From an uncultured Bacteroidales bacterium (lineage in GTDB: Bacteria > Bacteroidota > Bacteroidia > Bacteroidales > WCHB1-69), in contig ONAB01000029.1 in assembly GCA_900315705.1 (NCBI GenBank), positions 1 through 32,265 on the forward strand: 32,265 bases of DNA, in the 5' to 3' direction. The notes under the pieces are model-generated. The model did no database searches. It saw only the letters and a list, made by a program, of their open reading frames with translations, and was not told the DNA's origin. Shown one piece after another: positions 24,041 through 32,265 of this stretch. Position 1 is the stretch's first letter; each line of letters starts with the position of its first letter. The translations under genes were made by a program, and so were the position numbers.

Positions 24041-26566
24041 TTATTTATATTTCAATTGATTAGTGTTCTTGTCAATGGTGTAGGCGCCCCATTCACTCTC
24101 AATGAAGCTGTCGCCAACCACGATAGCGGCGGGCAGGTTCTTCTTGACGATGACCTTCACGTTCTCGGAATAGTCGTCACCGATACGCAGTTCCTCCAAA
24201 TAGAGGACAGCGCCCTCGATGATGCTGCCGTCTTCCTGCTTGATAGCGCCCGACTTCTCCTCGAAATCATTCAGGGTGATGAAGGACTCTTTCAGGAAAC
24301 GGGTGGCGTCGGCATAGTTCATCCAAACCTCTTCGCTACCGTTGCCGATCATAAACTCAAGAGATTTGCTGTTGGCGAAGCAGGTGCCCTTGACCTTGTC
24401 GCCGTCGATGGTGACGGGCACGGTGCGCTGTTGCACGAGGGCGATGCCGCCACCGTGACGCACGCTGTCGATATTGTCGTTGCTGGGCACATAGTCATCG
24501 CGGAGAATGATGAACTCGGTACGACGGTTGAGCTGGTGGGCAGCCTCACGCTCAGGTTTGGTGGGCAGCGACTCGCAGTAGCTCTCGGTCAGGTACGTGC
24601 CTTTGGGGAAGAAGTATTTCTTGCCGTTATAGGTGGAGTACATATCCTTTTCCAGTCTGCGGGGCACACGCTCGCCGTAGCCCTTGGCCACGATACGGTC
24701 GGCGGCAATGCCCTTTTCGTTCACGAGGAAGTCCACACAAGACTGGGCACGGTTCTGGGAGAGGATGTCGTTCTTCTCCTCCGTGTCACGCGAGTCGGTA
24801 TGGGAACGCAGCTCAATGACGATGGTCGGGTTCTTGACCATAATATTATAAAGGTACATCAGAGAGTCCTTATACTGGGGTTTGAGGTCCCACTTGGCCA
24901 GATCATACAGAATTTCCGGCAGCAGGATGGGCTCCTTCGGGATGGGCTCCAGCATAAAGTCCTGCTTGAGGTCGGTGTTTTCCTCCAGACCCACGGTAGT
25001 GGCCTTGGCAGTGTTGCCATTCTCCCAGTAGCCCTTCTTGGCAACCTTGATATCATAGGTGGTAGCGCCTAAGATTTTGGTCTTGTCGAAATGGTAGTAA
25101 CCCTTCACGTCGGTCGTGGTCTTGTAGGAGGTGCCGTCAGAGCCGGTGATTTCCACCTCAACGCCATCCATATACTGGCCGTTGTTCTTGTCGCGGATAT
25201 AACCGGAGAGCGTATAGACGAGGGGACGAAGCACGAAGTAGTAGATGTCGTCGCCGCCACGGCCGCCGGGACGGTTGGAGGAGAAATAACCCTTGGCGAG
25301 ATAGGGAGACTTGGACTTGGGGTCGATGGCTTCGGTCTCGTCGAAGATGATACCGATCTCGTCGTAGGAGGAGTTGATGGGGACCATCAGGTTCTCGGCC
25401 TTCTGGTACTCGCCGTTCTTGATGCGGGACACGAACAGGTCGAGGGAGCCCAGACCGGGCCAGCCGTCGGAGGAGAAGTAGAGTTCATTCTCGTTGCGAA
25501 GGATGGGGAAAACCTCCTGGCCTGCGGTGTTGACGTTAGGACCAAGGTTGGTGATATCGGTGAACTTGCCGGATTTCTTAGTACGAGTGGCCTTGTAGAT
25601 GTCATAGCCGCCGTATCCACCCGGACGGTTGGAGGCGAAATAGATGGTCAGCTCGTCACCGGAGATGTAAGGGTGCACATAGTTGGAGGAGGAGTCGCCC
25701 AGGAACACCAGTTCGGGTTCGCCCCAGGATTTACCCTTCTTCATAGACTTGTAGATGTAACAGCCCTGCACTTTCTTCTTGTCCTGCGGACATTTGGTGA
25801 AATAATAGACGGAGCCTTTGCGGTTGGAGCAGGCCTCGCCCTCGTTCACGCCGGAGTTGAGGATGCCGCCCTCGTCGAGGGTGGTGACAGGGGACCATTC
25901 ACCCGGCCAGTCGGTATTTTTGCTCTTGGGCTTGTTGGAGATGTAGATGTCGGAGAAGGAGACGCCGGTCCATTGGTCGGTACCCTTGCCGGTGGAGCCT
26001 TCACGGTTGGAGGTGAAGATGATGGAGTTGCGTTTCTCATCATTGCCCCAGCGGGGAGCCCATTCATCCTCACGGGTGTTGAATTTCTTGAGGTTCTCCA
26101 CCTCGTAGCGGGTGGGGTTCTCGTTCCACATCTTGGCATTCTGGCAGCCCTCGATGCGCACGTCGCCGCGCGGGTCGTCGGGCACGCGCTTCTTGTAGTT
26201 CTGATAATACTTCAGCGCCAGGTCATAGTCGCCGCGCATATTGTAAATGCTGCCGAGATGGAAGAGAATCATCGGGTTGTCCTTCTGATAGTTCTTCTTC
26301 TCCAGACGGAGGTATTGCTGCTCGGCCTTTTTCAGGTCGCCCATAATACGATAGCACTCGGCAATCTGGAACGTGGCACGCTGAATCTCCACTCTGTTGG
26401 AAGAGAGTTTCTTGATACCCTTCTTATATAGTTCCAATGCGTTCTCATATTGACAATCGCGGAACTTGTTGTCGGCATCGCGCAATATCTGCGCTTGGGC
26501 AACGCAACCCACTAACAATAAAGCGATTACAAGAATAGAGGCAAGCTTTTGTATCTTCATATTCAC
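24041..26566 (-). CDS. PorE-like OmpA family protein (TPR, PD40 propeller, CRD, OmpA) with C-terminal degenerate retropepsin-like domain
   Basis: An 841-residue envelope protein. A signal peptide contains LLLVGC (possible lipobox, Cys about 21), then TPR-like helices (about 30-130), a PD40 beta-propeller (about 150-440; repeated SNREG / SNRPGG blocks), a carboxypeptidase-regulatory-like beta domain (about 450-540) and an OmpA-like peptidoglycan-binding domain (about 553-690; ELRSHTDSRDTEEKND, LSQNRAQ). This order matches PorE of Porphyromonas gingivalis, a T9SS component. After OmpA, residues 714-841 resemble a retropepsin-like aspartyl protease, but the DTG triad position reads GNG (741-743). 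It has its own terminator and sits just downstream of secDF. A related non-T9SS OmpA protein is the main alternative. Confidence 0.8.
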   Translation of the reverse strand: MNMKIQKLASILVIALLLVGCVAQAQILRDADNKFRDCQYENALELYKKGIKKLSSNRVEIQRATFQIAECYRIMGDLKKAEQQYLRLEKKNYQKDNPMILFHLGSIYNMRGDYDLALKYYQNYKKRVPDDPRGDVRIEGCQNAKMWNENPTRYEVENLKKFNTREDEWAPRWGNDEKRNSIIFTSNREGSTGKGTDQWTGVSFSDIYISNKPKSKNTDWPGEWSPVTTLDEGGILNSGVNEGEACSNRKGSVYYFTKCPQDKKKVQGCYIYKSMKKGKSWGEPELVFLGDSSSNYVHPYISGDELTIYFASNRPGGYGGYDIYKATRTKKSGKFTDITNLGPNVNTAGQEVFPILRNENELYFSSDGWPGLGSLDLFVSRIKNGEYQKAENLMVPINSSYDEIGIIFDETEAIDPKSKSPYLAKGYFSSNRPGGRGGDDIYYFVLRPLVYTLSGYIRDKNNGQYMDGVEVEITGSDGTSYKTTTDVKGYYHFDKTKILGATTYDIKVAKKGYWENGNTAKATTVGLEENTDLKQDFMLEPIPKEPILLPEILYDLAKWDLKPQYKDSLMYLYNIMVKNPTIVIELRSHTDSRDTEEKNDILSQNRAQSCVDFLVNEKGIAADRIVAKGYGERVPRRLEKDMYSTYNGKKYFFPKGTYLTESYCESLPTKPEREAAHQLNRRTEFIILRDDYVPSNDNIDSVRHGGGIALVQQRTVPVTIDGDKVKGTCFANSKSLEFMIGNGSEEVWMNYADATRFLKESFITLNDFEEKSGAIKQEDGSIIEGAVLYLEELRIGDDYSENVKVIVKKNLPAAIVVGDSFIESEWGAYTIDKNTNQLKYK

Positions 26567-26656: not shown

Positions 26657-29600
26657 TTACTTCGAAATTTCAGCCTTCACGCGCTTGACCTCGCCGCCCT
26701 TAAGATTGAGCAAGTCGTAAGCGAGCGGGTTGGCCACGAGGATACCGGAGTAGGTACCGAAGAGGATACCGATGAACATAGCGAACACGAAGCCGCGGAT
26801 CACCTCACCGCCGAACAAGAAGATCACCAACAGCGTCACCAACGTGGTGAGGGCGGTGTTGATACTACGACCCATCGTGCTGTTGATAGCGGTGTTGAAA
26901 TTCTCGTAGTTGGTGCGCTTCGGATAAAGGGCCAAGTTCTCACGAACACGGTCCATAATGACCACGACGTTGTTGATGGAGTAACCGATCACCGTCAGGA
27001 TAGCTGCGATGAAGTTCTGGTCGATTTCCATAGAGAACGGCATAATCTTGTAGAAGAGGGAGAACATACCGATCGTCAGGAAGGAGTCGTGGAACAGGGC
27101 AGCCACACCAGCCATACCAAACTGCCAGTTGCGGAAACGGATGGCGATGTAGATGAAGATCAACACGAGGGAGGCCAACACAGCCCAGACAGCGTTCATC
27201 AAGAGCTCGCGGGCCACGGTCGGCTGGATCTTCTGGGAGGACTGGATACCACGGACATCGTTGGTCAAGTGGGAGAAGTCGTACTCAGAGAGGTCTTGTT
27301 TATCATAGAAACCCTTCAAGCAGTTGTAGAGTTTCTGCTCGCACTGCTGGTCCACCTTAGGATCGTTGCTATCCACAAGGTAGTTGGTGATGATACGGAT
27401 CTGGTTGTTGCTACCGAAGGTCTTCACTTCAGGGTTGCCACCGAACTCCTTGGCCACAGCGGCACGCACGTCCTTGGTGGTGACATCCTTGTCGAAACGC
27501 ACCACATAGCAACGGCCACCGGTGAAGTCGATACCCGGTTGCAGCTTCAGCGTGCAGAAGGAGATGATCGAAATCACAATCAAGCTGAGAGAGAGAGCGT
27601 AGAAAATCTTTCTCTTGGAGAGGAAGTCGATGTGAAGGTTCGTGAAGGCGTTGATGGTGAGAGAATTGCCGACCTCGAAGCTCTTGCCTTTCTTGAGGCG
27701 GGCCTCAATGATGAGACGGGACACCAAGATGGCGGTGAAGAGGGAGGAGAGGATACCGATGATCAACGTGGTGGCGAAACCTTGGATAGGACCGGAACCG
27801 AAGATATAGAGGACGATAGCGGTGATCAAGGTGGTCACGTTACCGTCGATGATAGCGGAATAGGAGTGTTTGAAACCTTCGTCAATAGCCACGCGGATAC
27901 CCTTGCCGGCGCGCACCTCTTCGCGGACACGCTCGTAGATAATCACGTTGGCGTCAACGGCCATACCGAGGGTCAGGACGATACCGGCGATACCGGGCAA
28001 CGTCAGGACAGCGCCCATAGAGGCGAGCACGCCGATGATGAAGAAGACGTTCATAAACAGGGCGAGGTCAGCGACCAGACCGGCGCGGCTGTAGTAGAAG
28101 AACATATAGAGCACCACGAGGATGAAGGCGGCCAGGAAGGAGAGCAAACCGGAGCGGATGGACTCCTTACCGAGGGTCGGGCCGACCACCTCGGATTGGA
28201 CGATGTTGACGCGGGCCTCCAGGTTACCGGAGTTGAGCACGGTGGCAAGGTCCTTGGCCTCTTCGATGGTGAAGTTGCCGGAGATTTCGGAATTACCGTT
28301 GGGGATTTCGCCGCGCACGGTCGGGGCGGAATAGACCACCTCGTCGAGCACGATGGCGATGGCGGAGAGATTGCCGGTGGCGTTGCCCTTCTCGGCGGCC
28401 TCGCGGGTGATCTTACGCCACTCGTCGGCAGCCTGGCTCTCCATCGACATATTGACCACGGTGCGGTTGTTCTGGTCCACATCCTGACGGGCGTTGCGCA
28501 CCACGCGGGCGCCGCCGATGGTCTCGGAACTCAAGAGCGGTCCGATACGGTCGTTTTTCTTCTTGAGGGGATAGAGCGGGAAGCCGTTGTTGTAGTTGGG
28601 ATCGGCAGCGTCGCCCCAATAGAAGACCACGTTGTTGTCGCCCAACAGGCGTTGCAGTTGCGGGAGCATAGCATTGATGGCAGGGATATCGGACTCCTTG
28701 AAGTAACCGATGACATAGCTGCCGGGGATAGCGACGGCCTTGCTCAGGATGGCGCCACCTTCGGCGGAGAGAACTTCATCTTCCTCATCCTCGTCCTCGT
28801 CAATAGCGGCTGCGGCTGCCAACGGGTCGGCGATGCTGTCGTTGAGATTCGTGGTATCCTCTTTGGCGGCCATCGTCTCCTTGTTCTTCAGCATCTCGGC
28901 CAACTGGGCGTCAGCCTCCATAAAGCGTTGCACGATGGGCTTGCCACCCACGATGTCGGCATACACCTCCCAGAATTCGAGTTTGGCGGTGCTCTTCAGA
29001 AGGTCGGTCACGCGCTCAGGCTCTTTGATACCGGGAAGTTCGACGAGGATACGGCCGCCCTGCAGCATCTGCAGATTGGGCTGAGCCACACCGAAACGGT
29101 CGATACGGGTACGGAGGATCTTGAAGGTGCGCTCCACGATTTCGGAGGACTCCTTCTTCATCCAGCTGATGATTTGCGCGTCGGAAGCGTTCTTGATGCC
29201 GGAGCGCTCGCCGAAATAGGTGCGGAGGTTGGCGTTGTTCAGTTTCAACGCACTCTTCTGCTTGTTGAAATTATTGACAAAAATATCAATGAAATCGCCG
29301 TTGGTCGTACGGGCGAATTCCTTCTCAGCGTTGGCAAAAGCAGTCTTGAAGAGTTCGTCCTCCTTATTGGAGGCCAGGCTTTGAACCACATCAGGCATAG
29401 AAATTTCAAGGGTGACGTTCATACCACCTTTCAGGTCCAGACCAAGGTTCAACTCTTTGTACTTGCACTTCTTGTAGGTTGTACCCAAGAAGACGGACGA
29501 GTCGTTCTTGTTGGTGAGGTACTGGCGGGTTCTGGCCTCAACCAAAGAGTCCACCAGATGTTTCTCCAACATCACGTCGCCATTAGCCAGTGCTTTCACA

Positions 29601-29740
29601 TTCTCGATGGCCACGGGATCATTCGCATACTTGTCCGCATTGCGCTCCACCCGCCACGTGGCGAAAGTGAAAGAGAGGCAATACAGGCAGACCAATGCCA
29701 ACAGAATGGTGAAAAATAAAATAAGTCCTTTGTTTTTCAT
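26657..29740 (-). CDS. secDF: protein translocase subunit SecDF (fused)
   Basis: A 1027-residue fusion of SecD and SecF, the RND-type accessory pump that uses proton motive force to help SecYEG export. The SecD part has GLDLKGGMNVTLEI, RTRIDRFGVAQPNLQ and, in the membrane domain, GMAVDANVIIYERVREE. The SecF part has GIDFTGGRCYVVRF (about 735-750) and GYSINNVVVIMDRVREN. The fusion is normal for Bacteroidetes. An Asp/Glu-rich insert (about 312-330) interrupts the P1 periplasmic domain. It has its own promoter and terminator. All T9SS cargo here must first cross the inner membrane by Sec, giving a functional tie to its neighbours. Confidence 0.96.
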   Translation of the reverse strand: MKNKGLILFFTILLALVCLYCLSFTFATWRVERNADKYANDPVAIENVKALANGDVMLEKHLVDSLVEARTRQYLTNKNDSSVFLGTTYKKCKYKELNLGLDLKGGMNVTLEISMPDVVQSLASNKEDELFKTAFANAEKEFARTTNGDFIDIFVNNFNKQKSALKLNNANLRTYFGERSGIKNASDAQIISWMKKESSEIVERTFKILRTRIDRFGVAQPNLQMLQGGRILVELPGIKEPERVTDLLKSTAKLEFWEVYADIVGGKPIVQRFMEADAQLAEMLKNKETMAAKEDTTNLNDSIADPLAAAAAIDEDEDEEDEVLSAEGGAILSKAVAIPGSYVIGYFKESDIPAINAMLPQLQRLLGDNNVVFYWGDAADPNYNNGFPLYPLKKKNDRIGPLLSSETIGGARVVRNARQDVDQNNRTVVNMSMESQAADEWRKITREAAEKGNATGNLSAIAIVLDEVVYSAPTVRGEIPNGNSEISGNFTIEEAKDLATVLNSGNLEARVNIVQSEVVGPTLGKESIRSGLLSFLAAFILVVLYMFFYYSRAGLVADLALFMNVFFIIGVLASMGAVLTLPGIAGIVLTLGMAVDANVIIYERVREEVRAGKGIRVAIDEGFKHSYSAIIDGNVTTLITAIVLYIFGSGPIQGFATTLIIGILSSLFTAILVSRLIIEARLKKGKSFEVGNSLTINAFTNLHIDFLSKRKIFYALSLSLIVISIISFCTLKLQPGIDFTGGRCYVVRFDKDVTTKDVRAAVAKEFGGNPEVKTFGSNNQIRIITNYLVDSNDPKVDQQCEQKLYNCLKGFYDKQDLSEYDFSHLTNDVRGIQSSQKIQPTVARELLMNAVWAVLASLVLIFIYIAIRFRNWQFGMAGVAALFHDSFLTIGMFSLFYKIMPFSMEIDQNFIAAILTVIGYSINNVVVIMDRVRENLALYPKRTNYENFNTAINSTMGRSINTALTTLVTLLVIFLFGGEVIRGFVFAMFIGILFGTYSGILVANPLAYDLLNLKGGEVKRVKAEISK

Positions 29741-29918: not shown

Positions 29919-32265
29919 TCAGTGTTTCACCAACTTCAGATAATACACCCGCTTGTCTGTAGTGATCACACGGACGATATAGGTTGCCTTTGCCAGGCGG
30001 CTGACATTGAATCGATAATCGTTGCGGAATACAGCGACCTGTCCGCCCTGCAAAGTTAGAACTGTGATTTCAGCCACCTCCTCAGGTGCAATGCCCATCA
30101 CCATCACCTCGTTATGTGCGGGATTGGGTGCGAGATACGGTTTGTCTCCTTGCTGAACATCCATATTGACACGGAGGCTTCTGGTAGAGTCATTATCCGC
30201 CATAGTGGAATCAATCTGTTGTCGTAAATCATCGGGGATTTGCTCCCAAAGAATGTACGGAGGTATGCAGATAGAATCATAACACAAATTTTCTCCATCA
30301 ATACATGCTATAAAATAAATACATATCGGCTGGTCGTTTACAAACATCTGCGACAACAGGCCATAATCGAGCATCAGAAGTCCGTCTAATTCAACAGGAT
30401 AACTTCCGTTTCCTGTAAAATCAACCACTTGGGAAGGTTTGCTCCAAACCGACAACACACTCTGTGCGGCAGGCAAAGGAATATGGAATTGGTAGTAAGA
30501 GCATTCATGAGATGTGCTAAACTCATAATAGAAATCAGTTGAATAATCAAAAACACCCTCACATCCTTCCTCAACACAGGACTGCCAATCTATATTTTCC
30601 ACATATTTGACTTCACAATTGCGGGAATGGTCTATGAAAGTGAATTCAACGGAGGTTGACGCAAAATCAGTAAAAGCAACTTCAATATCAATATCCTTAC
30701 AAGCACCTGGAGCAATATAAAGAGGCAAAGGACTGGCTGATAAAACATTACCTCCCATAATAGTCTGAACATCGTCAAAATACAACGGTTGGGAGCCATC
30801 ATTGCAAATGGTGTAATTAAATGAATAGTGCATTTTACAATCTTCCACCCAGCAAAAAGGTTGATGAGGCTTGAAACTCACACTGTCACACGGACAAATA
30901 TCGTCCTTGTCAATGAATAACTCAGGAGACTTAACTGTGCATCCAGCTGTATAGGTGGCATCCAAGTAATAAGTGCCAAAATCAATCAGAGGCAACAGAG
31001 GATTTTGATTAACCACAGTATATATCGAACCTGTAGGCTGGAATATCCAATCCCAATTCAAGTACCCAGACATGTATGGATAAATGCCATAGATTGGCAA
31101 ATCATACTGGAATTGTTCAGGGCACAACTTGTAACACCCTGTCAAAAGTGCATCAAAATCGGGAGCCGGCTCAATGAAGATTTGGGCATCGTATGAGCGG
31201 CATCCAGTAGATGGGTCAACATAATGAGCGGTGAGATATCCGTCTGAATAAGAATAGGCTGTGGTTCCGTGGTAACCATTACTCCAGAACAAACTCTGTC
31301 CGGTCGTGGAACTCACTTCAACAGGCGGGGTGTGGATGCAGTGGTTGCCCGAAAAAGCGATAGACGGTGCAGCTGGTCTTGGATTAACCGTTAAAGTGCA
31401 GGTTGCCGTGGCACTACAGTTGCCCGAATTGCTCACAGCAAGGGTTACTGTGTATGTACCCGGTTGGGAAGGAGTGAAAGAAAGTGTAGGACCCGTAGAA
31501 GTGAATCCCGGTAGTTCGGCGATAGTCCATGTATAGGTGTTGTTTGCGCCTGTATTTCCATTAAGATTGACAGTTTCACCCAAGCAGTATTCGGTGTTTC
31601 CGATGATCCGGGCCCAAGGTGCTGTGAGGAATCCGACATTGCACGTGGCTTTTGCCCTGCAACCATAGTAGGGGTAATATGCCTCAACACTGTAGTCACC
31701 TGTACTCAAAGCATCATATTGGTAGTTATTATATGGAGGATTAACTGGAAACCAAGTATAATAAGTATTGGACGGATGGGAATTGAACTGAATGGTTCGT
31801 GGCGTACCAGGACAAACTGGGATTGGAGATTGAGGTATTAATTTTTCCGGGTCAAGCACATTGTGAAACACGTCAACTTGCTGCGAATATGTATCCGAAC
31901 ACCCTAATGAATTCGTTACTATCAATGTAAAAACATAGGAAGACTGAATCATAAGATCAGACACATTATATGTATGATAAATATTATTTCCCACATTATA
32001 AGACAAATCTCCAAAATCCCAATAATATTGAAAATGATTGTTGTTTGGTGTTGCTGAAAATTGGAAAGGAGTATTATCACACATATTGGCAGGTATGTTA
32101 ATGCTTATTTGTGGAATATGCTCAATCGTTATGTTTTTTGAGCATTCACAACCTGTATTGCCAACAGTCATAGTTATGGTATATGTCCCCTGTAACGCAG
32201 ATGCCGGAATGGACACAGACATTTGGGGAGAATATATGGTCGCCGTGACCGATGTTCCCCCAATT
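29919..32265 (-). CDS. T9SS type A cargo with PKD domains, 5' end outside the window
   Basis: A partial gene: the reading frame stays open past the first in-frame ATG (32222) to the window edge, so about 781 C-terminal residues are visible and the start is missing. It is a large Cys-containing surface protein with PKD-like domains: one near visible residues 50-125 (FQYYWDFGDLSYN) and another in the region NTYTWTIAELPGF through PSQPGTYTVTLAVSN. The last ~75 residues form a T9SS type A sorting domain (YLAPNPAHNE ... KATYIVRV ... YYLKLVKH). Its DNA is visibly more AT-rich than the other genes here, suggesting a fast-evolving or acquired surface gene. Function beyond surface display is unknown. 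Confidence 0.85.
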   Translation of the reverse strand, partial: IGGTSVTATIYSPQMSVSIPASALQGTYTITMTVGNTGCECSKNITIEHIPQISINIPANMCDNTPFQFSATPNNNHFQYYWDFGDLSYNVGNNIYHTYNVSDLMIQSSYVFTLIVTNSLGCSDTYSQQVDVFHNVLDPEKLIPQSPIPVCPGTPRTIQFNSHPSNTYYTWFPVNPPYNNYQYDALSTGDYSVEAYYPYYGCRAKATCNVGFLTAPWARIIGNTEYCLGETVNLNGNTGANNTYTWTIAELPGFTSTGPTLSFTPSQPGTYTVTLAVSNSGNCSATATCTLTVNPRPAAPSIAFSGNHCIHTPPVEVSSTTGQSLFWSNGYHGTTAYSYSDGYLTAHYVDPSTGCRSYDAQIFIEPAPDFDALLTGCYKLCPEQFQYDLPIYGIYPYMSGYLNWDWIFQPTGSIYTVVNQNPLLPLIDFGTYYLDATYTAGCTVKSPELFIDKDDICPCDSVSFKPHQPFCWVEDCKMHYSFNYTICNDGSQPLYFDDVQTIMGGNVLSASPLPLYIAPGACKDIDIEVAFTDFASTSVEFTFIDHSRNCEVKYVENIDWQSCVEEGCEGVFDYSTDFYYEFSTSHECSYYQFHIPLPAAQSVLSVWSKPSQVVDFTGNGSYPVELDGLLMLDYGLLSQMFVNDQPICIYFIACIDGENLCYDSICIPPYILWEQIPDDLRQQIDSTMADNDSTRSLRVNMDVQQGDKPYLAPNPAHNEVMVMGIAPEEVAEITVLTLQGGQVAVFRNDYRFNVSRLAKATYIVRVITTDKRVYYLKLVKH

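Follow-up and report, generated by a model that had tools for sequence, protein, structure and literature searches.

The window analysed here, which is the whole stretch of 32,265 nucleotides forming positions 1 to 32,265 of contig ONAB01000029.1 from an uncultured Bacteroidales bacterium, encodes a PorE-like scaffold protein of the type IX secretion system (T9SS), and the C-terminal tail of this protein is a pseudo-retropepsin that is related by descent to the secreted clan AA aspartic proteases of Bacteroidota. PorE ties the T9SS machinery and some surface cargo to the cell wall. An original prediction, made from the DNA letters, had proposed that a PorE-like protein carries a degenerate retropepsin-like domain behind its OmpA domain. 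This observation is confirmed here by profile comparisons and by the predicted structure, and its interpretation is supported. With moderate confidence we favour the reading that the extension is an inherited pseudo-retropepsin on PorE which is not expected to cut and which serves as a docking or pairing module.

The extension shows a retropepsin fold in the predicted structure, which was computed for a single chain and for which VIA-align provided a second structural comparison. Gly741 lies at the end of strand 24-31 (residues 734-741), where the psi-loop starts, and the region of Val816-Val817-Gly818 forms strand 105-108 followed by helix 109-116. Matches of the window extension as a single sequence to clan AA models are weak but specific and stay below the curated cut-offs, namely to PF13975 gag-asp_proteas (E 5e-4, 21.2 bits; cut-off 28.2) and to TIGR02281 clan_AA_DTGA (E 3e-4, 21 bits; cut-off 57.95). 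A search of genome contigs returned 44 relatives with best segments of 50-90% identity, which sit in frames of 839-939 amino acids (aa) except for L034 and L039, which are cut by contig ends. From these and further sequences three profiles were built: A1 from 33 of the 44 relatives, none of which carries DTG, the wider A2 from 76 fused copies, and A3 from nine free DTG/DSG proteases. A1 matches 89 of 393 sampled genomes of the order, mainly in PorE-sized frames, as well as five DTG/DSG proteins (E 5e-12 to 1.5e-7), and A2 matches 122 of the 393. The comparison of A2 with A3 (hhalign) gave a whole-domain match with E 6.5e-35 and a probability of 99.9%, that of A1 with A3 gave E 6e-16, and against profiles from the Protein Data Bank (PDB) A2 found APRick at E 7e-5 while A3 found APRick at E 4e-12 and human DDI1 at E 3e-5. 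Among the 76 members of A2, 41 match TIGR02281 at E <= 0.1, and at E <= 0.01 PF13975 is matched by 27 and PF13650 by 12. Control comparisons reached only E 0.13 to 0.63, whether made with the CRD and OmpA domains from these proteins, with A3 after shuffling of its columns (eight profiles) or with a reversed A3 profile. Chance resemblance is ruled out by these controls together with the predicted structure, and the homology to known clan AA members extends to the sequence level.

The fused copies differ from their relatives in the catalytic motif. A copy was classed as fused if its frame also holds a PorE body (phmmer with window residues 1-700, E <= 1e-10), so that the motif played no part in the classification. 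D-T/S-G occurs in none of 147 distinct fused rows, and an earlier alignment of 130 fused rows likewise held none, with Asp in the first position in 40; by contrast, DTG or DSG is present in 27 of 29 non-fused rows, the exceptions being L157, a contig-edge fragment of 140 aa, and L147, which reads DTL. The window domain has Gly-Asn-Gly at the triad position, exactly as had been claimed, and it is not filed as a peptidase because the D-T/S-G motif is absent. Clan AA catalysis requires the Asp, and as judged from its sequence the window copy is not expected to cut, in line with the pseudo-protease originally proposed. D-T/S-G on PorE was sought in the 393 genomes of the order and in 395 genomes of the phylum, and the rows read contained no such case. 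An A2 match occurs in 122 genomes of the order, of which 105 hold a fused copy, 13 hold only a copy without a PorE body (in G049 probably a fused copy severed at a contig end), and four were left unread (G018 with E 3.5e-4, G238 with E 6.3e-4, G289 with a frame containing stops, and G336 with a 79-aa fragment), as were weak second matches in G203, G216, G297 and G361 (E 1.8e-4 to 3.4e-4). The contrast between fused and other rows offers a clean example from nature of how a protease fold became an apparently non-enzymatic module, and the active-looking sister domains in the same order allow comparison.

The survey of Bacteroidales suggested by the original prediction found fused copies in at least 105 of 393 order genomes, distributed over 36 family groups. 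In the phylum sample a PorE-fused match was present in the window's own genome only, and the four other matching genomes have relatives on other proteins. In an unrooted tree calculated without the catalytic columns, 63 fused rows (thinned at 58% identity) and 28 other rows (L157 excluded) are split by one branch, with a support of 97 in the quick tree and 98/89 in the careful tree; many forks within the fused group rest on few columns and are poorly supported, and the long-branched free rows L186 and L187 may join falsely. Distances in the extension correlate with those in the OmpA domain (0.63, with no value as high in 200 permutations), as shared descent would predict; this test and one conservation table used 58 of the 63 fused tree rows, namely those whose frame in the fetched stretch measures 600 aa or more. 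A hand count puts the number of PorE matches at E <= 1e-115 at one in 94 of the 105 genomes, at two or three in eight and at zero in three (G099, G253, G385), the identity of the single match with the fused gene having been checked directly for the window's genome only. The simplest reading of these sequence patterns is one fusion to the PorE C-terminus in an ancestor of many Bacteroidales lineages, which has been inherited since.

The extension is under purifying selection in near relatives. Across 396 near-relative pairs the ratio of non-synonymous to synonymous substitution rates (dN/dS) is ~0.10 for the extension, 0.07 for the OmpA domain, 0.07 for the propeller, 0.05 for the CRD, 0.03 for the TPR region and 0.30 for the linker (residues 701-716), rough values given that synonymous sites are near saturation (pS, the proportion of synonymous differences, ~0.5-0.7). 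Most fused places lie in open frames of ~785-930 aa, and the eight shorter ones (283-714 aa) include cases at contig ends. The catalytic loop, the flap alanine and LLGQS are conserved in the non-fused rows and are the most visibly relaxed parts of the fused rows, which retain much of the core and are stricter than the others at L758, F768, A786 and I839 (consensus letters). This pattern, a cleft that appears lost and a fold that appears kept, speaks against decay and against the old cleft being still in use, though it does not prove either point.

The gene and its parts, several with approximate limits, lie as follows.

24041..26566, minus strand: PorE-like T9SS scaffold gene, 841 aa when read from GTG
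26504..26560, minus strand: signal peptide with lipobox LVGC (Cys21), read from the translation
26117..26479, minus strand: TPR region, residues ~30-150, from Pfam TPR matches; limits approximate
25232..26089, minus strand: beta-propeller region, residues ~160-445, from a PD40 match at 292-324 and the coverage of the PorE model; limits approximate
24956..25213, minus strand: CRD (carboxypeptidase regulatory-like) domain, residues 452-537, PF13620 with E 2e-9
24479..24934, minus strand: OmpA_C-like peptidoglycan-binding domain, residues ~545-696
24428..24478, minus strand: flexible linker, residues ~697-713; predicted local distance difference test (pLDDT) < 50 at model residues 153-167 (= 697-711)
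24044..24427, minus strand: pseudo-retropepsin domain, residues 714-841
24338..24346, minus strand: lost catalytic triad Gly741-Asn742-Gly743 (in place of Asp-Thr-Gly), from alignments and the model
24113..24121, minus strand: Val816-Val817-Gly818, where clan AA proteases have their hydrophobic-hydrophobic-Gly motif (LLG in LLGQS), from alignments and the model

The ATG at 26560 (839 aa), two codons inside the GTG, is probably the likelier start. The protein has the PorE domain order of signal peptide, TPR, propeller, CRD and OmpA, with a peptidoglycan-binding OmpA domain like that of 6top, and the NCBIfam model NF052230 T9SS_PorE covers its residues 9-689 with 476 bits at a curated cut-off of 600. 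It is the best of six NF052230 matches in its own genome and the sole one at E <= 1e-115; the second and third (331 and 221 bits) lie in frames of 664 and 684 aa that stop after the OmpA domain. Asp591 and Arg606 of the OmpA domain are retained in 58 of 58 fused proteins. A disulfide between Cys610 and Cys729, which would link the OmpA domain to the extension, was rejected as a general feature: the pair is constant in 34 of 34 near relatives, and both cysteines occur in only four of the 58 fused proteins. Lipidation appears to vary among near relatives and not to be universal, because the Cys21 column (window 26504-26506) holds Cys in just 19 of the 34 aligned near relatives, the window counted, and Tyr in 12. 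The window's genome encodes a T9SS, as judged by SprA (2449 bits) and by sorting tails, with 98 Por_Secre_tail matches of which all but one exceed the cut-off. The PorE-like gene adjoins secDF (26657-29740), beside which a PKD-domain protein (29919-32222, minus strand) carries a T9SS sorting tail at 29922-30131.

Among the free forms are small proteins (~180-290 aa), a set of seven TPR proteins (685-742 aa) and a single M28/cyclophilin/FKBP frame. One small free protein with an intact FDTGASS is encoded in the window's own genome (L046 1270-1830, near 199582 on C12), ~43 kb from sprA (C12:149602-156630), and represents an active-looking cousin of the PorE extension. The seven TPR-repeat proteins (two adjacent genes at L104, and L106, L176, L182, L183 and L184) end in a DTG-bearing gag-asp_proteas domain and form a second type of scaffold-retropepsin fusion in Bacteroidales with the motif intact, and an unusual folding/cutting mix is found at L146 (G568, 1-1893), where M28 peptidase, cyclophilin and FKBP domains precede a terminal DTG retropepsin-like domain. 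Among the fused copies, family group f46 has two extended PorE copies per genome in G046, G156 and G250 (loci L119/L122, L124/L192 and L112/L114), of which L122, L114 and L192 form a separate long-branched clade.

A docking or pairing role is inferred from the PorE and retropepsin literature and from the domain anatomy. PorE of P. gingivalis is described as a periplasmic lipoprotein of four domains whose OmpA domain (residues 534-668) binds peptidoglycan (PMC7192894), it binds PorP of the outer membrane, which in turn holds the type B cargo PG1035 (PMC9143113), and retropepsins are homodimers (PMC12239564). In the proposed mechanism the extension would hang from the flexible linker behind the OmpA domain and act as a protein-docking module, either pairing two PorE molecules in the way retropepsins pair or binding another envelope protein, by which PorE-PorP units may be coupled at the wall. 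Our guess, based on this anatomy, would rank PorE pairing first, docking of another envelope protein second and peptide gripping in the dead cleft behind both. A bolder version, which we put forward tentatively and think somewhat more apt to be wrong than right, is that the wall anchor PorE captured a retropepsin once, that catalysis disappeared from the start, and that the domain turned into a dedicated coupling module, as a PorE pair-former or as a receptor for a ring, wall or cargo component. PorE would then have a second architectural class, present in roughly one in four of the sampled Bacteroidales genomes, and a pseudo-protease would be a structural part of a secretion machine.

Several observations weigh against the docking or pairing reading. 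The structure model is a monomer and cannot reveal a dimer, and residues at the active-site part of the retropepsin dimer interface are changed, so that pairing may be lost too. The dN/dS of the extension is a rough value and somewhat above that of the other PorE domains, fused rows are looser beyond the cleft as well (P717, G723, E753, K759, L790, V793, A805, A813 and more), and the smaller number of non-fused rows (28) in itself lowers their entropy. The window departs from the fused consensus at K839 (I in the consensus) and Y840 (F in the consensus), and its NF052230 score under the cut-off makes strict PorE function a presumed one.

Two alternatives deserve most attention. In the first, which we consider unlikely, the dead cleft grips extended peptides, such as the C-terminal tails of T9SS cargo or the tail of a wall protein, as a pseudo-enzyme receptor; the flap region around EDGSIIEG is strongly conserved in near relatives and the host protein is a secretion scaffold from a genome with 98 sorting-tail matches, but in the family at large the psi-loop, the flap Ala and LLGQS, which are motifs of the cleft, have become less strict and vary from copy to copy, and T9SS tails are recognised by other components. 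In the second, to which we assign a similarly low probability, the extension is mainly a spacer, or a cap that stabilises the OmpA domain or the C-terminus of PorE, without a specific partner. This would agree with the flexible linker, the C-terminal place and the faster evolution, and protection from proteolysis may matter since PorE appears at ~60 instead of 78 kDa in P. gingivalis without PorP (PMC9143113); the positions that are stricter in fused rows hint at more than bulk, yet may reflect core packing. Very improbable is a third reading, in which a fused protease is decaying and the extension is what is left of it, with no function of its own: its evolution is somewhat faster than that of the other PorE domains and many positions outside the active site are looser than in free relatives, but the low dN/dS, the open frames, and a core conserved in diverse family groups, partly more strictly than in free relatives, stand against it. 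Aspartic protease activity through an unusual active site has next to no probability, as Ala-Thr-Gly in two of the 147 fused rows and Asp in the first position in 51, where unorthodox activity is conceivable at some cost to our reading, face the lack of the full motif in every row and a Gly in the window.

Within the open-licence text of PubMed Central (PMC), no paper was found that joins an aspartic protease to PorE and type IX secretion, a retropepsin to type IX secretion, or a retropepsin to Bacteroidetes. A study of 2016 mentions, in the part available, extensions at the N- and C-terminus of some PG1058 homologues and does not specify there what they are (PMC5053529). Both parts belong to known families, and their combination, the lasting absence of the motif and the spread appear new within that body of text.

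Compared with known systems, P. gingivalis PorE (PG1058, NF052230, PDB 6top) has four domains and lacks the fifth domain of the PorE-like protein encoded in the window, and the PorE papers found use this species; the best PorE matches in the order survey, among the matches listed, lie in frames of 628-749 aa. With the fifth domain present in at least 105 of 393 Bacteroidales genomes, the model protein misses the full architecture. The PF13975/PF13650/TIGR02281 proteases, free and TPR-linked in Bacteroidota, share the whole-domain profile match and core positions with the extension but keep D-T/S-G, and nine of ten free relatives pass the PF13975 cut-off in a Pfam scan, unlike the window copy. 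APRick of Rickettsia (5c9b, 5c9d, 5c9f) and the Ddi1 RVP domains are proteases or triad-bearing domains in other contexts and are not known to be linked to PorE, OmpA or T9SS. The RloA proteases of Pseudomonas are likewise secreted, retropepsin-like and dimeric in a Gram-negative bacterium (PMC12239564). They differ from the extension by bearing DTG and by having their own genes, and NCBIfam RloA2 matches one of the 76 fused copies, at E 0.09. Dead proteases kept for binding or regulation are likewise known from iRhoms and CspC, which have other folds, and none of these, as far as the accessible accounts go, is a retropepsin on a secretion scaffold.
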